From the NCBI RefSeq assembly GCF_013391635.1, contig NZ_JACAWU010000002.1, positions 1,550,001 through 1,614,000 of the forward strand: a DNA stretch of 64,000 nucleotides. Reading direction: 5' to 3'. Positions 49,955 to 53,861 of the stretch are shown here, one piece after another. Position numbers and translations under genes: made by a program. The notes under the pieces were generated by a model. That model was not told where the DNA came from and ran no database searches. It saw only the letters and a list, made by a program, of their open reading frames with translations. Position 1 is the first letter of the stretch; every line of letters begins with the position of its first letter. Source of the DNA: Natronomonas gomsonensis (GTDB taxonomy: Archaea > Halobacteriota > Halobacteria > Halobacteriales > Haloarculaceae).

Positions 49955-51199
49955 CTATTCGCCCGTCGGAGCGGGGATGGCGGGCAGTTCCTGGAGTTCA
50001 GGGAGGCCGCGCGTGCCCGGCTGGCACTCCTCGCCGTTGCAGTCCATCACCACGCCCAGTCGCGTCCCCAAGAGTTCCACGTTCGTCTCCGCCATGGCCG
50101 TACTCCCACCGTCGTGGTACCGAAGGCGTGGGTCGACCGTGTAGTCCTTCTCCCCGTCGTTAACGGTTAGTTCCGCGTCAGCGTCACCGAATTCCGAGGT
50201 TGCGAGGCCACCGACCTTCCCCGAAACACCGGGACCTTCCCCGGATTCGTTGGCCGTCACTTCGTAGAAGACTAATCCAACGGCTCCGTCACGGTACTGC
50301 CCATATCGGCTCGGCGTTGCGCTAGCACCAGGGTCGCTCGGCGGGTTCTGTGGGTCGACCGAGGGGTCGTTGGGGTCCTGAACCTCACACTGGTTCGGCG
50401 TCGCGCCGAAGACGATGGCCGCAGCGACCTCCGGCGTAATCAGGTTCGTCGGCACGCCCGGCGGCTGGGCCTGCTCCGGCAAGTCGTCGAACCACGGCAC
50501 CTGCTCGAACGGCACGTTCTCCTGGGCTTGGTTTCCAACGTCCGTACAGACCGCACTCGGGAACGGACCTTCCGAGTCGTCGCCCTCTTGGCTCGTCGGT
50601 GCGGGAATGGCGGGCGGTTTCTGGAGTTCGGGGAGGCCGCGCGTGCCCGGCTGACACTCCTCGCCGTTGCAGTCCATCACCACGCCCAGACGCGTGCCCA
50701 ACAGTTCCACGTTCGTCTCTGCCATGCCGGTTCCGTCGTCGAAGTACCGGACGCGCGGGTCGACCGTGTAGTCCTTCTCGCCGTCGTTGACCGTCACCGA
50801 CGGGTCAGCGTCGCCGAACTGCGATGTCGCCAATCCCGCTGCGGTCACCGTCGCACCGGGTCCTTCGCCGGACTCGTTGGCCGTCACGTCGAAAACAACC
50901 ACGCCAACGGCACCGTCACGGAACTGCCCCATACGCTGGTTCTCCACGCTGTAATCCGGGTCACGCGGTGGGTCAGTGGGATCGACCGATGGGTCGTTGG
51001 GGTCCTGGACTTCACACTGATTCGGCGTCGCGCCGAAGACGATGGCCGCAGCGACCTCCGGTGTAATCAGGTTCGTCGGCACGCCCGGCGGCTGGGCCTG
51101 CTCCGGCAAGTCGTCGAACCACGGCACCTGCTCGAACGGCACGTTCTCCTGAGCCTGGTCCCCAACGTCCGTACAGACCGCATCCGGGAACGGACCCTC
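49955..51199 (-). repeat. 627-base tandem duplication inside the exported protein gene
   Basis: Copy 1 covers 50573-51199 and copy 2 covers 49955-50572. A stretch of about 150 bases (51013 onward against 50386 onward) differs at only a few positions, including at synonymous sites, which points to a recent duplication or gene conversion. The middle of the unit is more diverged. Confidence 0.85.
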
Positions 51200-51496
51200 C
51201 TCATCGTCGTTACTATCGTCAGGGGCTATATCTTCCTCGTCGGGGAGCGTGCCCTCATCCGGTGTGTCTTCCTCGCTCGGGATGGATTCTTCGACCGTAC
51301 TGGTGTCGTTCTCAACCGTGACATCGCCGTCATCGTTGACTTCGACTCCGTTACCGTCGACTCCGACCGAGACGCCGTCGTCGCTCACCGAGACGCCGTC
51401 GTCGACCGCCGCCGCCGGTGCGGCCGTGAAACCCACGACCATCAAAACGGCGACGAGACAGGACAGTGTTGCTCTCGCTATACTGGATTCTCCCAT
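49955..51496 (-). CDS. Exported acidic protein with two near-identical tandem domains
   Basis: The 513-residue precursor has a signal peptide ending TAAPAAA (about 30), an acidic stretch with DGVSV repeats (31-99) and two tandem copies of a 209-residue unit (100-308 and 309-513). Each unit has four cysteines (AVCTDVG, NQCEVQD, MDCNGEEC), the phrase DPNDPSVDP, VTANESGEGPG, VNDGEKDYTVDPR and a tail with RGLPELQ. The four cysteines suggest disulfides outside the cell. It shares its domain with the next gene upstream. No sorting motif or membrane anchor is seen at the C terminus, so it may be released or bound to the surface layer. The function is unknown. Confidence 0.85.
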   Translation of the reverse strand: MGESSIARATLSCLVAVLMVVGFTAAPAAAVDDGVSVSDDGVSVGVDGNGVEVNDDGDVTVENDTSTVEESIPSEEDTPDEGTLPDEEDIAPDDSNDDEEGPFPDAVCTDVGDQAQENVPFEQVPWFDDLPEQAQPPGVPTNLITPEVAAAIVFGATPNQCEVQDPNDPSVDPTDPPRDPDYSVENQRMGQFRDGAVGVVVFDVTANESGEGPGATVTAAGLATSQFGDADPSVTVNDGEKDYTVDPRVRYFDDGTGMAETNVELLGTRLGVVMDCNGEECQPGTRGLPELQKPPAIPAPTSQEGDDSEGPFPSAVCTDVGNQAQENVPFEQVPWFDDLPEQAQPPGVPTNLITPEVAAAIVFGATPNQCEVQDPNDPSVDPQNPPSDPGASATPSRYGQYRDGAVGLVFYEVTANESGEGPGVSGKVGGLATSEFGDADAELTVNDGEKDYTVDPRLRYHDGGSTAMAETNVELLGTRLGVVMDCNGEECQPGTRGLPELQELPAIPAPTGE

Positions 51497-51554
51497 TTCT
51501 ACCAGTGGCTACCTTAGTCAACGTATTTACAGTTACGCCCCCCATACACGGGGC

Positions 51555-51579
51555 TTTATATGTAATACCGAATATTCGG
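51555..51579 (-). promoter_or_regulatory. TATA element and 12-base palindrome upstream of the exported-protein gene
   Basis: CCGAATATTCGG (51568-51579) is a perfect palindrome. On the minus strand it is followed after five bases by ATATAAAG (51555-51562), about 59-66 bases before the start codon at 51496. Its position just upstream of the TATA element suits a regulator site. Confidence 0.5.
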
Positions 51580-51657
51580 AGGAGCGAGCCCGAAACCACC
51601 GAAAAGAGACGTTTGAGAACAGCCAACAAGCCCAGTTAGGTCGTCAGCGAAGTTTCA

Positions 51658-52962
51658 CTAGACGGGGAGCCCCGACCCGCCGAGTTCCGGAAGACCCGGA
51701 GCGCCGCCCTCGGTCGCACCGGTGATGATGGAGATCGCGTCAGCGGGACCGACGGCGTTCGGGAGCCCAACGAGTTCGTACTCGCAGGGACCGAGCGGGT
51801 TCTCCTGAACGTCGCTGAAGTCGCCGTCGAACTCGGTGAGTTCGTTACACTCGCCGTCGATACCCGCTTGGTTTCCGAAGATGAGGAGCACCGCTTCGCC
51901 CTCGAAGCTGTCGTCGTTGTACCGAATGCGCGGGTCGACGCCGTAATCCTTCTCGCCGTCGTTGACGACGAGTTCACCGTCGAGGTCACCGAACTCCGAG
52001 GTCGTCAGTCCGCCAAGTTTCCCGGAAACACCGGGGCCCTCACCGGACTCGTTCAGGGTGCTGTCGTACGTGATGAGTGCAACGCCGCCGTCCTGGAACT
52101 GTCCGAACCGCTGCACGTCGAAGTCGTAGGCAGGGTCACTCGGCGGGTCGGTCGGGTCGACCGAGGGGTCGTTCGGCGTCTGGATGTCACACGGCGCCGG
52201 AACGAGGCCGAGTGCGATACCGAGGACCGCATCGTTCGAGAGGATGCTCGTCGGGACGCCCGAGGGAACGGCCTCCTGCGGGAGGTCCTGAATCGACGGA
52301 AGAGCCTCGGCAGGAAGATCGCTGGATTCGACGTTGAGGGGTTCACACACGTTCACCTGTGCGTTTTCGTCACCGATGGGAACGTCCTCGGGACCCGTTT
52401 GATTGATTTCCGCGTTTTCGAGGATTTGCTCCAGAACCCGGAGCTCCTGCGGGATGTCGTCGGAACTGCTGTCGAGTTCCGTCGGGTCGGTCGGGACATC
52501 ATCGCCGCTACCGATGTCGCCCGCGTCCTCGGGGAGCGGAAGGCTTCCGGAGTCGCCGACCGGATTCTCGCCGTCGCCGCCGATGTCACCGGCATCGTCG
52601 GGAAGCGGAAGGTCACCGCCGCCGCTGTCCGGGGAGACTTCTCGGTCACCCACGGAGACGCCGTCGTCGCTTGCTTCGACGCCACCGACCTGTGCACCGG
52701 CACCGTCGGTTCCCGCCTCGGCAGCGACCGCATCGTCGCCGCCGACGGTCGCGTTGACACCGGAAGTGCCGGCCTCAACGTCGACACCCTCCTCGCCACC
52801 GACGTTGACGCCGTCGCCTCCGATACTGATTCCCTCGTCGCCACCGATGTTGATTCCGTCACCACTACCGCCCAACTGCGCAGCGGCCGGAGCCACGGCG
52901 AAGGAGGTGAAAACCGAAACGGCCGTGACGACCACTAACAGTTGCAGTACTCTCTGTCGCAT
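51658..52962 (-). CDS. Exported acidic Gly-rich protein, paralogue of the tandem-domain protein
   Basis: The 434-residue precursor starts at ATG 52962 with a signal peptide (QLLVVVTAVSVFTSFAVAPAAA). The next 120 residues are Gly/Asp repeats (GGDEGISIGGDGVNVGGEEGVDV) ending in DDGVSVGDREVSP, then two LPLP(D/E)DAGDIG repeats, then one copy of the four-cysteine domain (VNVCEPLN, APCDIQT, PNDPSVDP, NESGEGPG, VNDGEKDYGVDPR, GECNELT, GPCEYEL). The tail is GLPELGGSGLPV. The domain matches that of the 513-residue neighbour downstream, more distantly than its two copies match each other. It has its own TATA element. Confidence 0.82.
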   Translation of the reverse strand: MRQRVLQLLVVVTAVSVFTSFAVAPAAAQLGGSGDGINIGGDEGISIGGDGVNVGGEEGVDVEAGTSGVNATVGGDDAVAAEAGTDGAGAQVGGVEASDDGVSVGDREVSPDSGGGDLPLPDDAGDIGGDGENPVGDSGSLPLPEDAGDIGSGDDVPTDPTELDSSSDDIPQELRVLEQILENAEINQTGPEDVPIGDENAQVNVCEPLNVESSDLPAEALPSIQDLPQEAVPSGVPTSILSNDAVLGIALGLVPAPCDIQTPNDPSVDPTDPPSDPAYDFDVQRFGQFQDGGVALITYDSTLNESGEGPGVSGKLGGLTTSEFGDLDGELVVNDGEKDYGVDPRIRYNDDSFEGEAVLLIFGNQAGIDGECNELTEFDGDFSDVQENPLGPCEYELVGLPNAVGPADAISIITGATEGGAPGLPELGGSGLPV

Positions 52963-53015
52963 GTACTTACGGATGGCAGACGTACAAGGAAGGGGGTAAC
53001 GCCCGAGATAGCCGG

Positions 53016-53026
53016 TTATTTTTATG
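53016..53026 (-). promoter_or_regulatory. TATA element of the Gly-rich exported-protein gene
   Basis: CATAAAAATAA on the minus strand lies about 54-64 bases before the start codon at 52962, which would leave a short untranslated leader of about 30 bases. Confidence 0.45.
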
Positions 53027-53138
53027 CGGCCCTCGTCACCTGTCGAACGGCTCGTGAACCACCCCTGCACTCGACGACCATTCCGAAACCTTCAATTACC
53101 TCACCGGGATACGAAGAAGTGCAGGCAGACGCCAGCGT

Positions 53139-53213
53139 GGGTTCGTGGTCTAGGCTGGTTATGACACCTCCTTGACATGGAGGAGGCCGGCAGTTCAAAT
53201 CTGCCCGAACCCA
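53139..53213 (+). tRNA. tRNA-Val (anticodon GAC)
   Basis: A 75-base tRNA including the discriminator A: acceptor stem GGGTTCG/CGAACCC, anticodon stem CCTCC/GGAGG enclosing TTGACAT with anticodon GAC, and T loop TTCAAAT. There is no intron, and CCA is not encoded. It lies between two exported-protein genes on the opposite strand. Confidence 0.96.
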
Positions 53214-53315
53214 CTCGCTTTCTACACCGCTACTACGTCGACACCTAGACAGTACTGCAGCTGTGCGGTCGCTACGTATCGAGTGACGCAAAAGCGGAGT
53301 TGTTCGAGCAGCTAT

Positions 53316-53786
53316 CTACAGCAGGTCGGCCGGAAGCTCACCGCCACCGGGGAACTCGGGGAGTTCCGGTGGTTCGGGTGCGGGCGTGTCGCCACCCGGC
53401 GATTCGATTTCGCACGTCTCCTGGGGGTTCTGTGCCGACTGCTCGCTGAGTTCGCAGTCGATTCCGGCTTCTCCACCTTCACCGGCGACATCGCCGCCAC
53501 CGGATGCCGAAACTTCGGCGCTCGGTTCCTCGGCGTCGACGCCAGCGGAACCACTCCCGGAGGCGTTACCTTGACTGCTCTCGACGCCGACTTCACCGCC
53601 GCCCTCGCCGCCGCTGTCGTCGGCGTCGAGGATGAGGTCACCGGTGATGTCACCGCCACTGGGACCGTCGGGAACTTGGTCGCCGATTCCACCGAGTTGC
53701 GCCGCCGCGGGCGCAACGAACATCGTCGCGACACAGAACGCCGCCAGCAGGGCGACGCCAGCGCGTGTCGTGGTACGTCGAGTCAT
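53316..53786 (-). CDS. Exported acidic Gly/Ser/Glu-rich protein, third member of the cluster
   Basis: The 156-residue precursor has a signal peptide (GVALLAAFCVATMFVAPAAA) followed by QLGGIGDQ, as in its 434-residue neighbour (QLGGSGDG). An acidic low-complexity stretch (LDADDSGGEGGGEVGVESS, VSASGGGDVAGEGGE) leads to two cysteines (GIDCELSEQ, QETCEIES) and a Pro-rich tail (APEPPELPEFPGGGELP). The shared signal junction and PEL(P) tail tie it to the two upstream neighbours, but the four-cysteine domain is missing. The transcript is probably leaderless. Confidence 0.8.
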   Translation of the reverse strand: MTRRTTTRAGVALLAAFCVATMFVAPAAAQLGGIGDQVPDGPSGGDITGDLILDADDSGGEGGGEVGVESSQGNASGSGSAGVDAEEPSAEVSASGGGDVAGEGGEAGIDCELSEQSAQNPQETCEIESPGGDTPAPEPPELPEFPGGGELPADLL

Positions 53787-53810: not shown

Positions 53811-53861
53811 AAATAAAAGGAGATTACTCGGGAGATTACCGGCTTTTTATTAAATTAATAA
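53811..53861 (-). promoter_or_regulatory. Promoter region with AT-rich palindrome before the third exported protein
   Basis: CCTTTTATTT (53811-53820, minus strand) is a TATA element 25-34 bases before the ATG at 53786. TTATTAAATTAATAA (53847-53861) is a perfect odd-length palindrome about 27 bases upstream of it. It could be an operator or part of the terminator of the SDR gene that ends at 53894. Confidence 0.45.

Follow-up and report, generated by a model that had tools for sequence, protein, structure and literature searches.

A putative regulon of exported acidic proteins beside a tRNA-Val gene of Natronomonas gomsonensis, with a candidate membrane-bound regulator

Introduction

Many exported haloarchaeal proteins have neither a family nor a role. 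Three of them, here P1, P2 and P3, are encoded around a tRNA-Val gene of Natronomonas gomsonensis, and the question raised by this locus is whether they work together and, if so, at what. The genes lie in the window, the whole 64,000-nucleotide stretch of DNA that was analysed (contig NZ_JACAWU010000002.1, positions 1,550,001 to 1,614,000). An initial annotation had placed three open reading frames there and read them as a possible new surface system; their coordinates were confirmed, all on the minus strand (Table 1). The surface-system reading is partly supported, and is sharpened by a shared promoter element and a candidate regulator. On sequence evidence, P1–P3 may be a regulon of exported acidic proteins, forming a surface or extracellular coat, matrix or adhesion layer under a membrane-bound one-component regulator, a reading whose chances we judge to be evenly balanced. 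Below, G000 is the genome holding the window (3.38 Mb), other G-numbers are genomes compared with it, and L-numbers are fetched loci.

Results

Three exported, acidic proteins

P1, P2 and P3 each begin with a hydrophobic stretch that ends APAAA, and the signal peptides and acidic composition first described held for all three: precursor net charges are −83, −77 and −26, respectively, and lysine content is 0 to 0.8%. Judged by the lipobox definition used for the lipoprotein test, none is a lipoprotein, there being no cysteine at the APAAA boundary; nor, by the definition of the PGF-CTERM sorting motif, does any resemble an archaeosortase substrate of that type, as all three lack a C-terminal hydrophobic segment. 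P2 has a weak internal hydrophobic segment (amino acids (aa) 236–258). A family member from G336 ends in a Gly/Asp-rich stalk followed by a membrane segment.

A four-cysteine domain without a described family

A four-cysteine domain occurs twice in P1, once in P2 and not at all in P3. The local alignment score of the second P1 copy (P1b) with P2 was 460, where 300 shuffles averaged 41.6 and never exceeded 74; the similarity behind the domain reported as common to two proteins lies far above chance, and P1 holds this domain twice. To treat all three proteins as a related set was too strong, because P3 shares design and promoter element only. P3 scored 110 against the N-terminus of P2 (shuffle mean 75, maximum 105) and 43 against that of P1 (shuffle mean 44), and the idea that it is a detached N-terminal part of the family has suggestive support only. 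After its signal region P3 has just two cysteines; a C-x10-13-C motif akin to theirs was found in g16 P1-type proteins, G307 and L051. Separately, L201 of G289 (gene 2131–2640; G289:C1:1772574) encodes an exported acidic protein of 169 aa whose TCDIDTTPSAENPC motif is similar to the one in P3; it lacks the domain and has no Pfam match at E ≤ 0.01.

Three of the domain's cysteines are (nearly) invariant in a 22-row alignment, which also shows a C-E/D-V-x-x-P-N-D-P-type segment and many prolines, while the position of the fourth cysteine varies. Profile searches of Pfam, NCBIfam and PDB sequences bore out the statement that no described family is recognisable. Against Pfam-A, P1–P3 gave two matches, both in P1 and under the curated cut-off, and PF06607 Prokineticin (E 0.1, the best value) was rejected on that ground; NCBIfam gave no match. 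The 22 family domains produced two weak Pfam matches, each in a single member, and the domain profile found no relative among PDB sequences (best E 6.9).

Structure prediction, named by the initial annotation as a check on the domain, yielded beta strands but no convincing fold match, at low overall predicted local distance difference test (pLDDT) values: the mean was 60 for P1b (17 rows) and 47 for whole P2 (25 rows). Within the P2 model, aa 271–380 had block means of 60–93, mostly >74, and residues 17–216 fell below 50; seven antiparallel-looking strands were predicted within 278–373, and one more at 393–398. Foldseek found nothing in the PDB at E ≤ 0.001 for either model (best E 0.32 for P1b and 0.15 for P2), which is weak evidence because the models are of low overall confidence. 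A match to a Pandoravirus protein (E 2.8e-6) was discarded, with template modelling (TM) scores of 0.15/0.09, a root-mean-square deviation of 38 and an alignment covering disordered parts. A beta-solenoid for the DGV repeats was likewise not backed by the P2 model, in which pLDDT is 22–33 there.

An N-x-S/T sequon is present in the loop that follows the second strand in 19 of 42 aligned copies, where about 4% would be expected for each 7-column window; inside the genus, 17 of the 22 copies have it by our own count. L041, the single-domain relative from G369, bears an additional module at its N-terminus, which Big_7 matched below threshold (E 0.055), and members from G310 and G426 have, by eye, a similar N-terminal stretch.

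An apparently narrow family at a conserved position

A 17-row domain profile, run on 116 genomes of the host's taxonomic family, matched 15, of which 14 were convincing (G206, E 0.003, was dropped). These comprise 8 of the 14 listed genus members (G000, G259, G289, G310, G336, G369, G424 and G426) and, beyond the genus, G307, G392, G399, G402, G404 and G406. Among 392 genomes of the order, with at most seven candidates scored per genome, a 22-row profile matched eight at E ≤ 1e-4, all in the host's taxonomic family; the family therefore looks narrow. The candidates L019–L024 (E 1.9e-4 to 8.9e-4), five of them outside that taxonomic family, were unrelated-looking reading frames and disappeared at E ≤ 1e-4 with the 22-row profile.

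In the window, trpD lies downstream of P1 and an SDR gene upstream of P3 (names by our reading of the translations). The interval between trpD and tRNA-Val holds family genes in 13 genomes: in the window, G259, G424, G336, G289, G310 and G369, and also in G307, G392, G399, G402, G404 and G406. G426 is too fragmented to be placed, and the G259 locus is on two contigs with the break inside P1. A P1-type plus P2-type pair, as assigned by us from gene order and cysteine pattern, occupies the trpD site in eight genomes (the window, G259, G424, G392, G399, G402, G404 and G406) spanning three genera. In 14 genomes of the taxonomic family that gave no convincing match, G206 among them, the trpD region (L114–L127) contained no family member: in ten, tRNA-Val stands 158–242 bp from the trpD match with the site unoccupied, one has tRNA-Leu there, and three have no tRNA in the stretch. 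Relatives of P3 were found among the 116 genomes in G000, G259, G424, G289 and G336, plus three weak others; that of G336 lies in the same neighbourhood, beyond the SDR gene, and that of G289 elsewhere.

Is the cluster, then, an accident of duplication beside a tRNA gene, involving ordinary low-complexity exported proteins with no common role? P1 and P2 are indeed paralogues, P3 is on the other side of the tRNA gene and has no domain in common with them, and in G289 and G336 the P2-type gene is sited elsewhere. We nevertheless think such an accident unlikely: the pair has been kept beside trpD in three genera, and a promoter element is common to all three genes.

Maintained genes, varying copies and a mosaic block

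The genes have not decayed in relatives, the ratio of non-synonymous to synonymous substitution (dN/dS) being 0.07–0.25 in the pairs compared. Among close relatives it is 0.07–0.12 for P2, 0.10–0.25 for P1 and 0.07–0.15 for P3, with 0.12–0.16 for the second P2-type gene and 0.01–0.11 for control genes, and from these low values we take the genes to be maintained. The DGV repeats of P2 are constrained: over aa 26–100 the protein is identical between G000 and G259 at a proportion of synonymous differences (pS) of 0.16–0.24, with two changes to G424. Between G000 and G259, P2 aa 276–325 (alignment numbering), which include the first beta strands, show pS of 0.40–0.66 and a proportion of non-synonymous differences (pN) of 0.16–0.23, a joint rise that fits allele exchange. 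Tandem copies are alike within a genome (84% in G000, 87% in G336, 91% in G289), the G289 P1 and P2 genes match at 80% across 271 bp, and copy number varies, being one in G424 and two in G000.

Two explanations other than a structural surface layer draw on this variation. The first is that the proteins are secreted binders or inhibitors, freed into the medium, where they would for example act on proteases or competitors or bind a ligand. Small beta domains that contain cysteines, occur in repeats and vary in their first hairpin are typical of binding modules; the mosaic block at P2 aa 276–325 and the 271-bp match in G289 would suit such a role, as would the lack of lipobox, C-terminal membrane segment and sorting tail in P1–P3. 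On the other side, the G336 relative has its stalk and membrane segment, haloarchaeal proteins are commonly kept at the surface without any anchor, and in the loci inspected there was no recurring toxin, immunity or protease partner, the sole recurring neighbour being a DUF7537 protein beside three P2-type genes. A role as released binders or inhibitors seems to us doubtful on this balance. The second explanation is defence at the surface, with the proteins serving for example as virus-receptor decoys or masks; patchy presence, copy-number change and the mosaic block would fit diversification under attack. Selection is purifying overall, however, and nothing defence-specific was found, a defence library not having been part of the search. 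Phage and plasmid records held no relatives of P2, and the 29 candidate stretches from viral contigs, sought by one peptide pattern only, included none that was confirmed; a viral or plasmid origin was rejected on the same searches. A defensive role is accordingly the explanation to which we give least credence.

A shared element behind the TATA box

Palindromes had been reported near the promoters. As strict inverted repeats they are weak: none of ≥8 nucleotides (nt) occurs in 51450–51720, around the P1 promoter, where a 5-pair stem lies at 51537–51554, and three short ones occur in the P2 and P3 stretches. What emerged instead, on aligning the upstream regions of relatives of P1, P2 and P3, was a CCG..AT..CGG-like imperfect dyad immediately behind the TATA box of each of the three genes. 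The pattern CCGKNNATNNCSSGMGTWA with ≤1 mismatch has three matches in the window, all at the three promoters (shuffle mean 0.20, three matches being reached by 1 shuffle in 100), a count that is partly circular because the pattern was derived from the same promoters. With a matrix built from 11 genus sites, for which a null of 153,693 positions had a maximum of 11.2, the P1–P3 positions scored 21.3–24.1 and the best position elsewhere in the window 10.7.

Six of 25 promoters left out of the matrix exceeded the null maximum (G426 P1, G336 X, the P1-type promoters of G402, G404 and G406, and a second G404 gene); several of the starts used for the 25 are guesses and seven are not start codons, and G336 P1, G336 P2 and G289 P2 had been in the element-finding alignment. 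Five of the six sites lie 53–56 nt before the start used, behind an AT-rich TATA-like stretch, and that of G336 X at −150. Weak sites at a comparable place were seen for G336 P1 (6.2 at −55), G289 P2 (5.5 at −53), G392 P1 (5.0 at −58) and G307 (8.6 at −52).

Genome scans gave 42 matches to the first pattern in five genomes, against 16 for the control, and 42 against 3 for a TATA-anchored pattern in eight family-bearing genomes, where 14 of the 42 are P1, P2 or P3 promoters by our count. In six family-lacking genus members the TATA-anchored pattern gave 8 matches against 9. Regions were fetched for hits of the first pattern (eight) and for a selection of the non-family hits of the second (19), and 21 sites were inspected in TATA-anchored form, L201 included; by our classification, five of them precede exported or membrane-anchored proteins (L201, L205, L206, which has a plus site, L209 and L210). 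The matches at G000:C1:1382464, C2:706939 and C1:739855 were rejected as lying inside or against reading frames, and an HVO_0163-type regulator behind the L203 site is a weak lead. The L201 site itself (2075–2093) is a comparable promoter element ahead of the exported acidic gene in G289.

The element might be no more than a promoter-strength, initiator-like sequence of highly expressed genes, to which the transmembrane regulator described below is unrelated. It does overlap the stretch from TATA box to expected start, the usual place of core elements; the promoters of paralogous regulators differ in sequence at that position; and a stricter pattern shows no clear enrichment. An element of general promoter strength is nevertheless hard to square with a window of many genes in which only three positions exceed a score of 20, or with the lack of enrichment in family-lacking genus members, and we regard this explanation as rather unlikely.

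A candidate transmembrane regulator

One of the inspected sites stands before a gene (L205, G000:C2:1321519) at G000:C2:1320027-1321526 for a protein of 500 aa that begins with an export-type segment, continues with an acidic ectodomain and a transmembrane-like segment, and has two helix-turn-helix (winged-helix) stretches, both above the Pfam cut-off; simple hydropathy places its hydrophobic segments at 21–52 and 287–307. With a predicted membrane segment and a DNA-binding domain in one protein, it falls within the definition of a one-component transmembrane regulator. Its own promoter has TATAAAAGTCCGTCCATGACCGG, nearly identical in G259 and G424, and the promoter of the G336 orthologue has CCGGCTATCACCGG; the G428 orthologue, from a genome included in no pattern scan, scored 14.3 directly behind a TATA-like stretch. 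A dyad behind a TATA-like stretch was thus seen at the regulator gene in G000, G259, G424, G336 and G428.

At E ≤ 1e-20 the regulator has matches in 11 of the 20 genus genomes. Of the genomes that could be compared, 7 of the 8 with the family have such a match and none of the 6 without it does (two-sided Fisher p 0.005), a co-occurrence that close relatedness inflates, as it does the stricter count given in the Discussion. The other 14 of the 20 regulator promoters scanned, belonging to weaker matches, scored ≤7.6; two of them have a CCGGATATGGCCGG dyad at a different place, and several have other sequences behind the TATA-like stretch.

The promoters of paralogous membrane regulators (L238–L241, L243–L245 and L247) carry sequences of CCATACATCACCAGC or CCACGCATACAGTGCG type directly behind a TATA-like stretch, which gives the impression of a variant element particular to each paralogue. 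The same paralogous match, of equal score and identity, was obtained at G000:C1:72491-73795, near the beginning of contig 1, and at G000:C2:1803343-1804647, near the far end of contig 2, which suggests that these contigs of the G000 assembly overlap or are duplicated there.

Discussion

The favoured reading can be set out as a mechanism. P1–P3 would form or decorate an extracellular or surface-layer (S-layer)-associated layer, a coat, matrix or adhesin, with exported products that stay with the S-layer or enter the medium. P1 and P2 would present a lineage-specific, beta-rich four-cysteine module on predicted disordered Gly/Asp- and Pro-rich spacers; outside the cell its cysteines may form disulphides, the NxS loop may be glycosylated, and the module may contact a surface, other cells or a polymer. 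The regulator would bind the element between TATA box and start, repress by occluding the start region, control its own gene by autoregulation, and respond to an extracellular cue, such that the layer is made when outside conditions demand.

How much of the 'surface system' first proposed does this preserve? The signal peptides, the composition, the sequon of the genus and the one member with a C-terminal membrane segment all point to the surface, which remains the probable rather than the observed location. As for a system, the promoter element common to three genes and the pair found in eight genomes of three genera speak for it.

Several observations weigh against a single regulon of surface proteins. 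P3 is related to P1 and P2 by design only, and outside the genus the loop sequon occurs in only 2 of 20 copies. The window count of CCGKNNATNNCSSGMGTWA shows specificity, not independence. Nineteen of the 25 left-out promoters did not exceed the null maximum, and the six that did include the close relatives G402, G404 and G406 as well as G426, a relative of a training gene; at the P2-type promoters of G402, G404 and G406 the scores were −5.8 to −0.9. The stricter TATA-anchored pattern was hardly enriched (11 matches against 7 for the control in 16 genomes), five of its 11 matches being family promoters (G000, G424, G402, G404 and G406). Among the 21 inspected sites, five precede other genes, a further 11 fall within or adjoin reading frames or are followed by nothing clear, and the site shared by G000:C2:899009, G259:C41 and G424:465734 was rejected as coding, within a gene that we read as universal-stress-protein-like (Usp). 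At the regulator promoters of G336 and G289 the matrix scored only 6.8 and 6.1, and a strict regulator orthologue (E ≤ 3.5e-69) is present in 5 of 8 family-bearing genomes, a count likewise inflated by relatedness, and not in G310, G369 or G426.

Transmembrane transcription regulators have been reported as widespread in archaea (PMC10269533), and the closest described logic to the proposed control is that of ArnR/ArnR1 of Sulfolobus acidocaldarius, which are membrane-bound and bind promoters of surface-structure genes (PMC6396743). L205 would similarly join a transmembrane protein to a DNA-binding domain; it differs in its N-terminal export-type segment, its acidic Asn/Thr-rich ectodomain and its two C-terminal winged-helix domains, and its predicted targets are non-pilus exported proteins. 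A semi-palindromic site set relative to the TATA box is described for CsmR of Haloferax volcanii, which controls motility genes; that site is TATCA(N4)TGATA, upstream of the B recognition element (BRE)/TATA (PMC13286277), whereas the element here is of CCG..AT..CGG type and appears just downstream of TATA. The domain itself may be compared with the immunoglobulin-like (Ig-like) surface modules of prokaryotic exported proteins, likewise repeated small beta domains on acidic spacers, from which it differs in that neither Pfam nor NCBIfam has a model matching it and that no fold in the PDB matched at E ≤ 0.001.

A more elaborate version is a self-monitoring circuit, in which the regulator would sense the layer through its acidic low-complexity ectodomain and control the coat genes and itself through the TATA-adjacent dyad. 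We consider it quite improbable; were it true, the paralogous regulators with variant sequences would be parallel circuits for other surface programmes.

For an exported family that has no name so far, the analysis defines a domain and a conserved gene position, predicts a control element that its genes share, and puts forward a candidate membrane-bound regulator. Archaeal control of a secreted coat or adhesin by a one-component regulator reading the cell exterior thereby becomes testable, and the element and the regulator paralogues could guide a search for exported programmes where homology searches are blind. A keyword search of the open-access literature, in which this family has no name to search, returned no paper recognised as dealing with these proteins.

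Features of the locus and its neighbours

Table 1. Positions of the genes, domains and promoter elements discussed; positions without a locus prefix are those of the window.
Feature	Position	Strand	Description
P1	49955..51496	-	513 aa; signal peptide, short DGVSV stretch, two tandem four-cysteine domain copies
P1 domain copy a	50570..51196	-	aa 101-309
P1 domain copy b	49958..50569	-	aa 310-513; DNA identity to copy a 84%
P2	51658..52962	-	434 aa from ATG at 52962; signal peptide, GGDGVxVG repeats, one four-cysteine domain
P2 domain region	51661..52356	-	aa 203-434; antiparallel beta strands predicted at aa 278-373
P3	53316..53786	-	156 aa; exported acidic protein, C-x13-C motif, without four-cysteine domain
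tRNA-Val(GAC)	53139..53214	+	landmark adjoining the gene pair; between P2 and P3
P1 shared promoter element	51533..51551	-	TATA-adjacent, 1 mismatch; TATA-anchored match 51538-51558
P2 shared promoter element	52997..53015	-	TATA-adjacent; TATA-anchored match 53002-53024
P3 shared promoter element	53824..53842	-	TATA-adjacent; TATA-anchored match 53829-53849
DUF7537 neighbours	L035:5628-6515, L039:6072-6983, L135:4543-5751		

The tRNA-Val gene is a landmark and no functional component of the cluster. P2 shares 94% identity with a Natronomonas sp. CBA1123 protein, and one further P2-type gene lies on the other contig of G000 (L011 5411–6589). Directly after this second P2-type gene comes a pilin-like protein of 580–591 aa (L011:3575-5317 and L143:4224-5999), the G000 copy of which has a DUF7289 match below threshold (E 3e-5). 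The DUF7537 protein mentioned above is lipoprotein-like; it follows the P2-type genes of G336 and G289 directly and stands beside one G404 copy. In G424 an insertion of about 13.6 kb (L133:2644-16298) separates the P3 gene from the 3′ end of tRNA-Val and has, towards P3, a gene for a phage-type integrase (Phage_int_SAM_1, E 2.2e-5); the window lacks this insertion, which is probably an integrative element located at the same tRNA gene.

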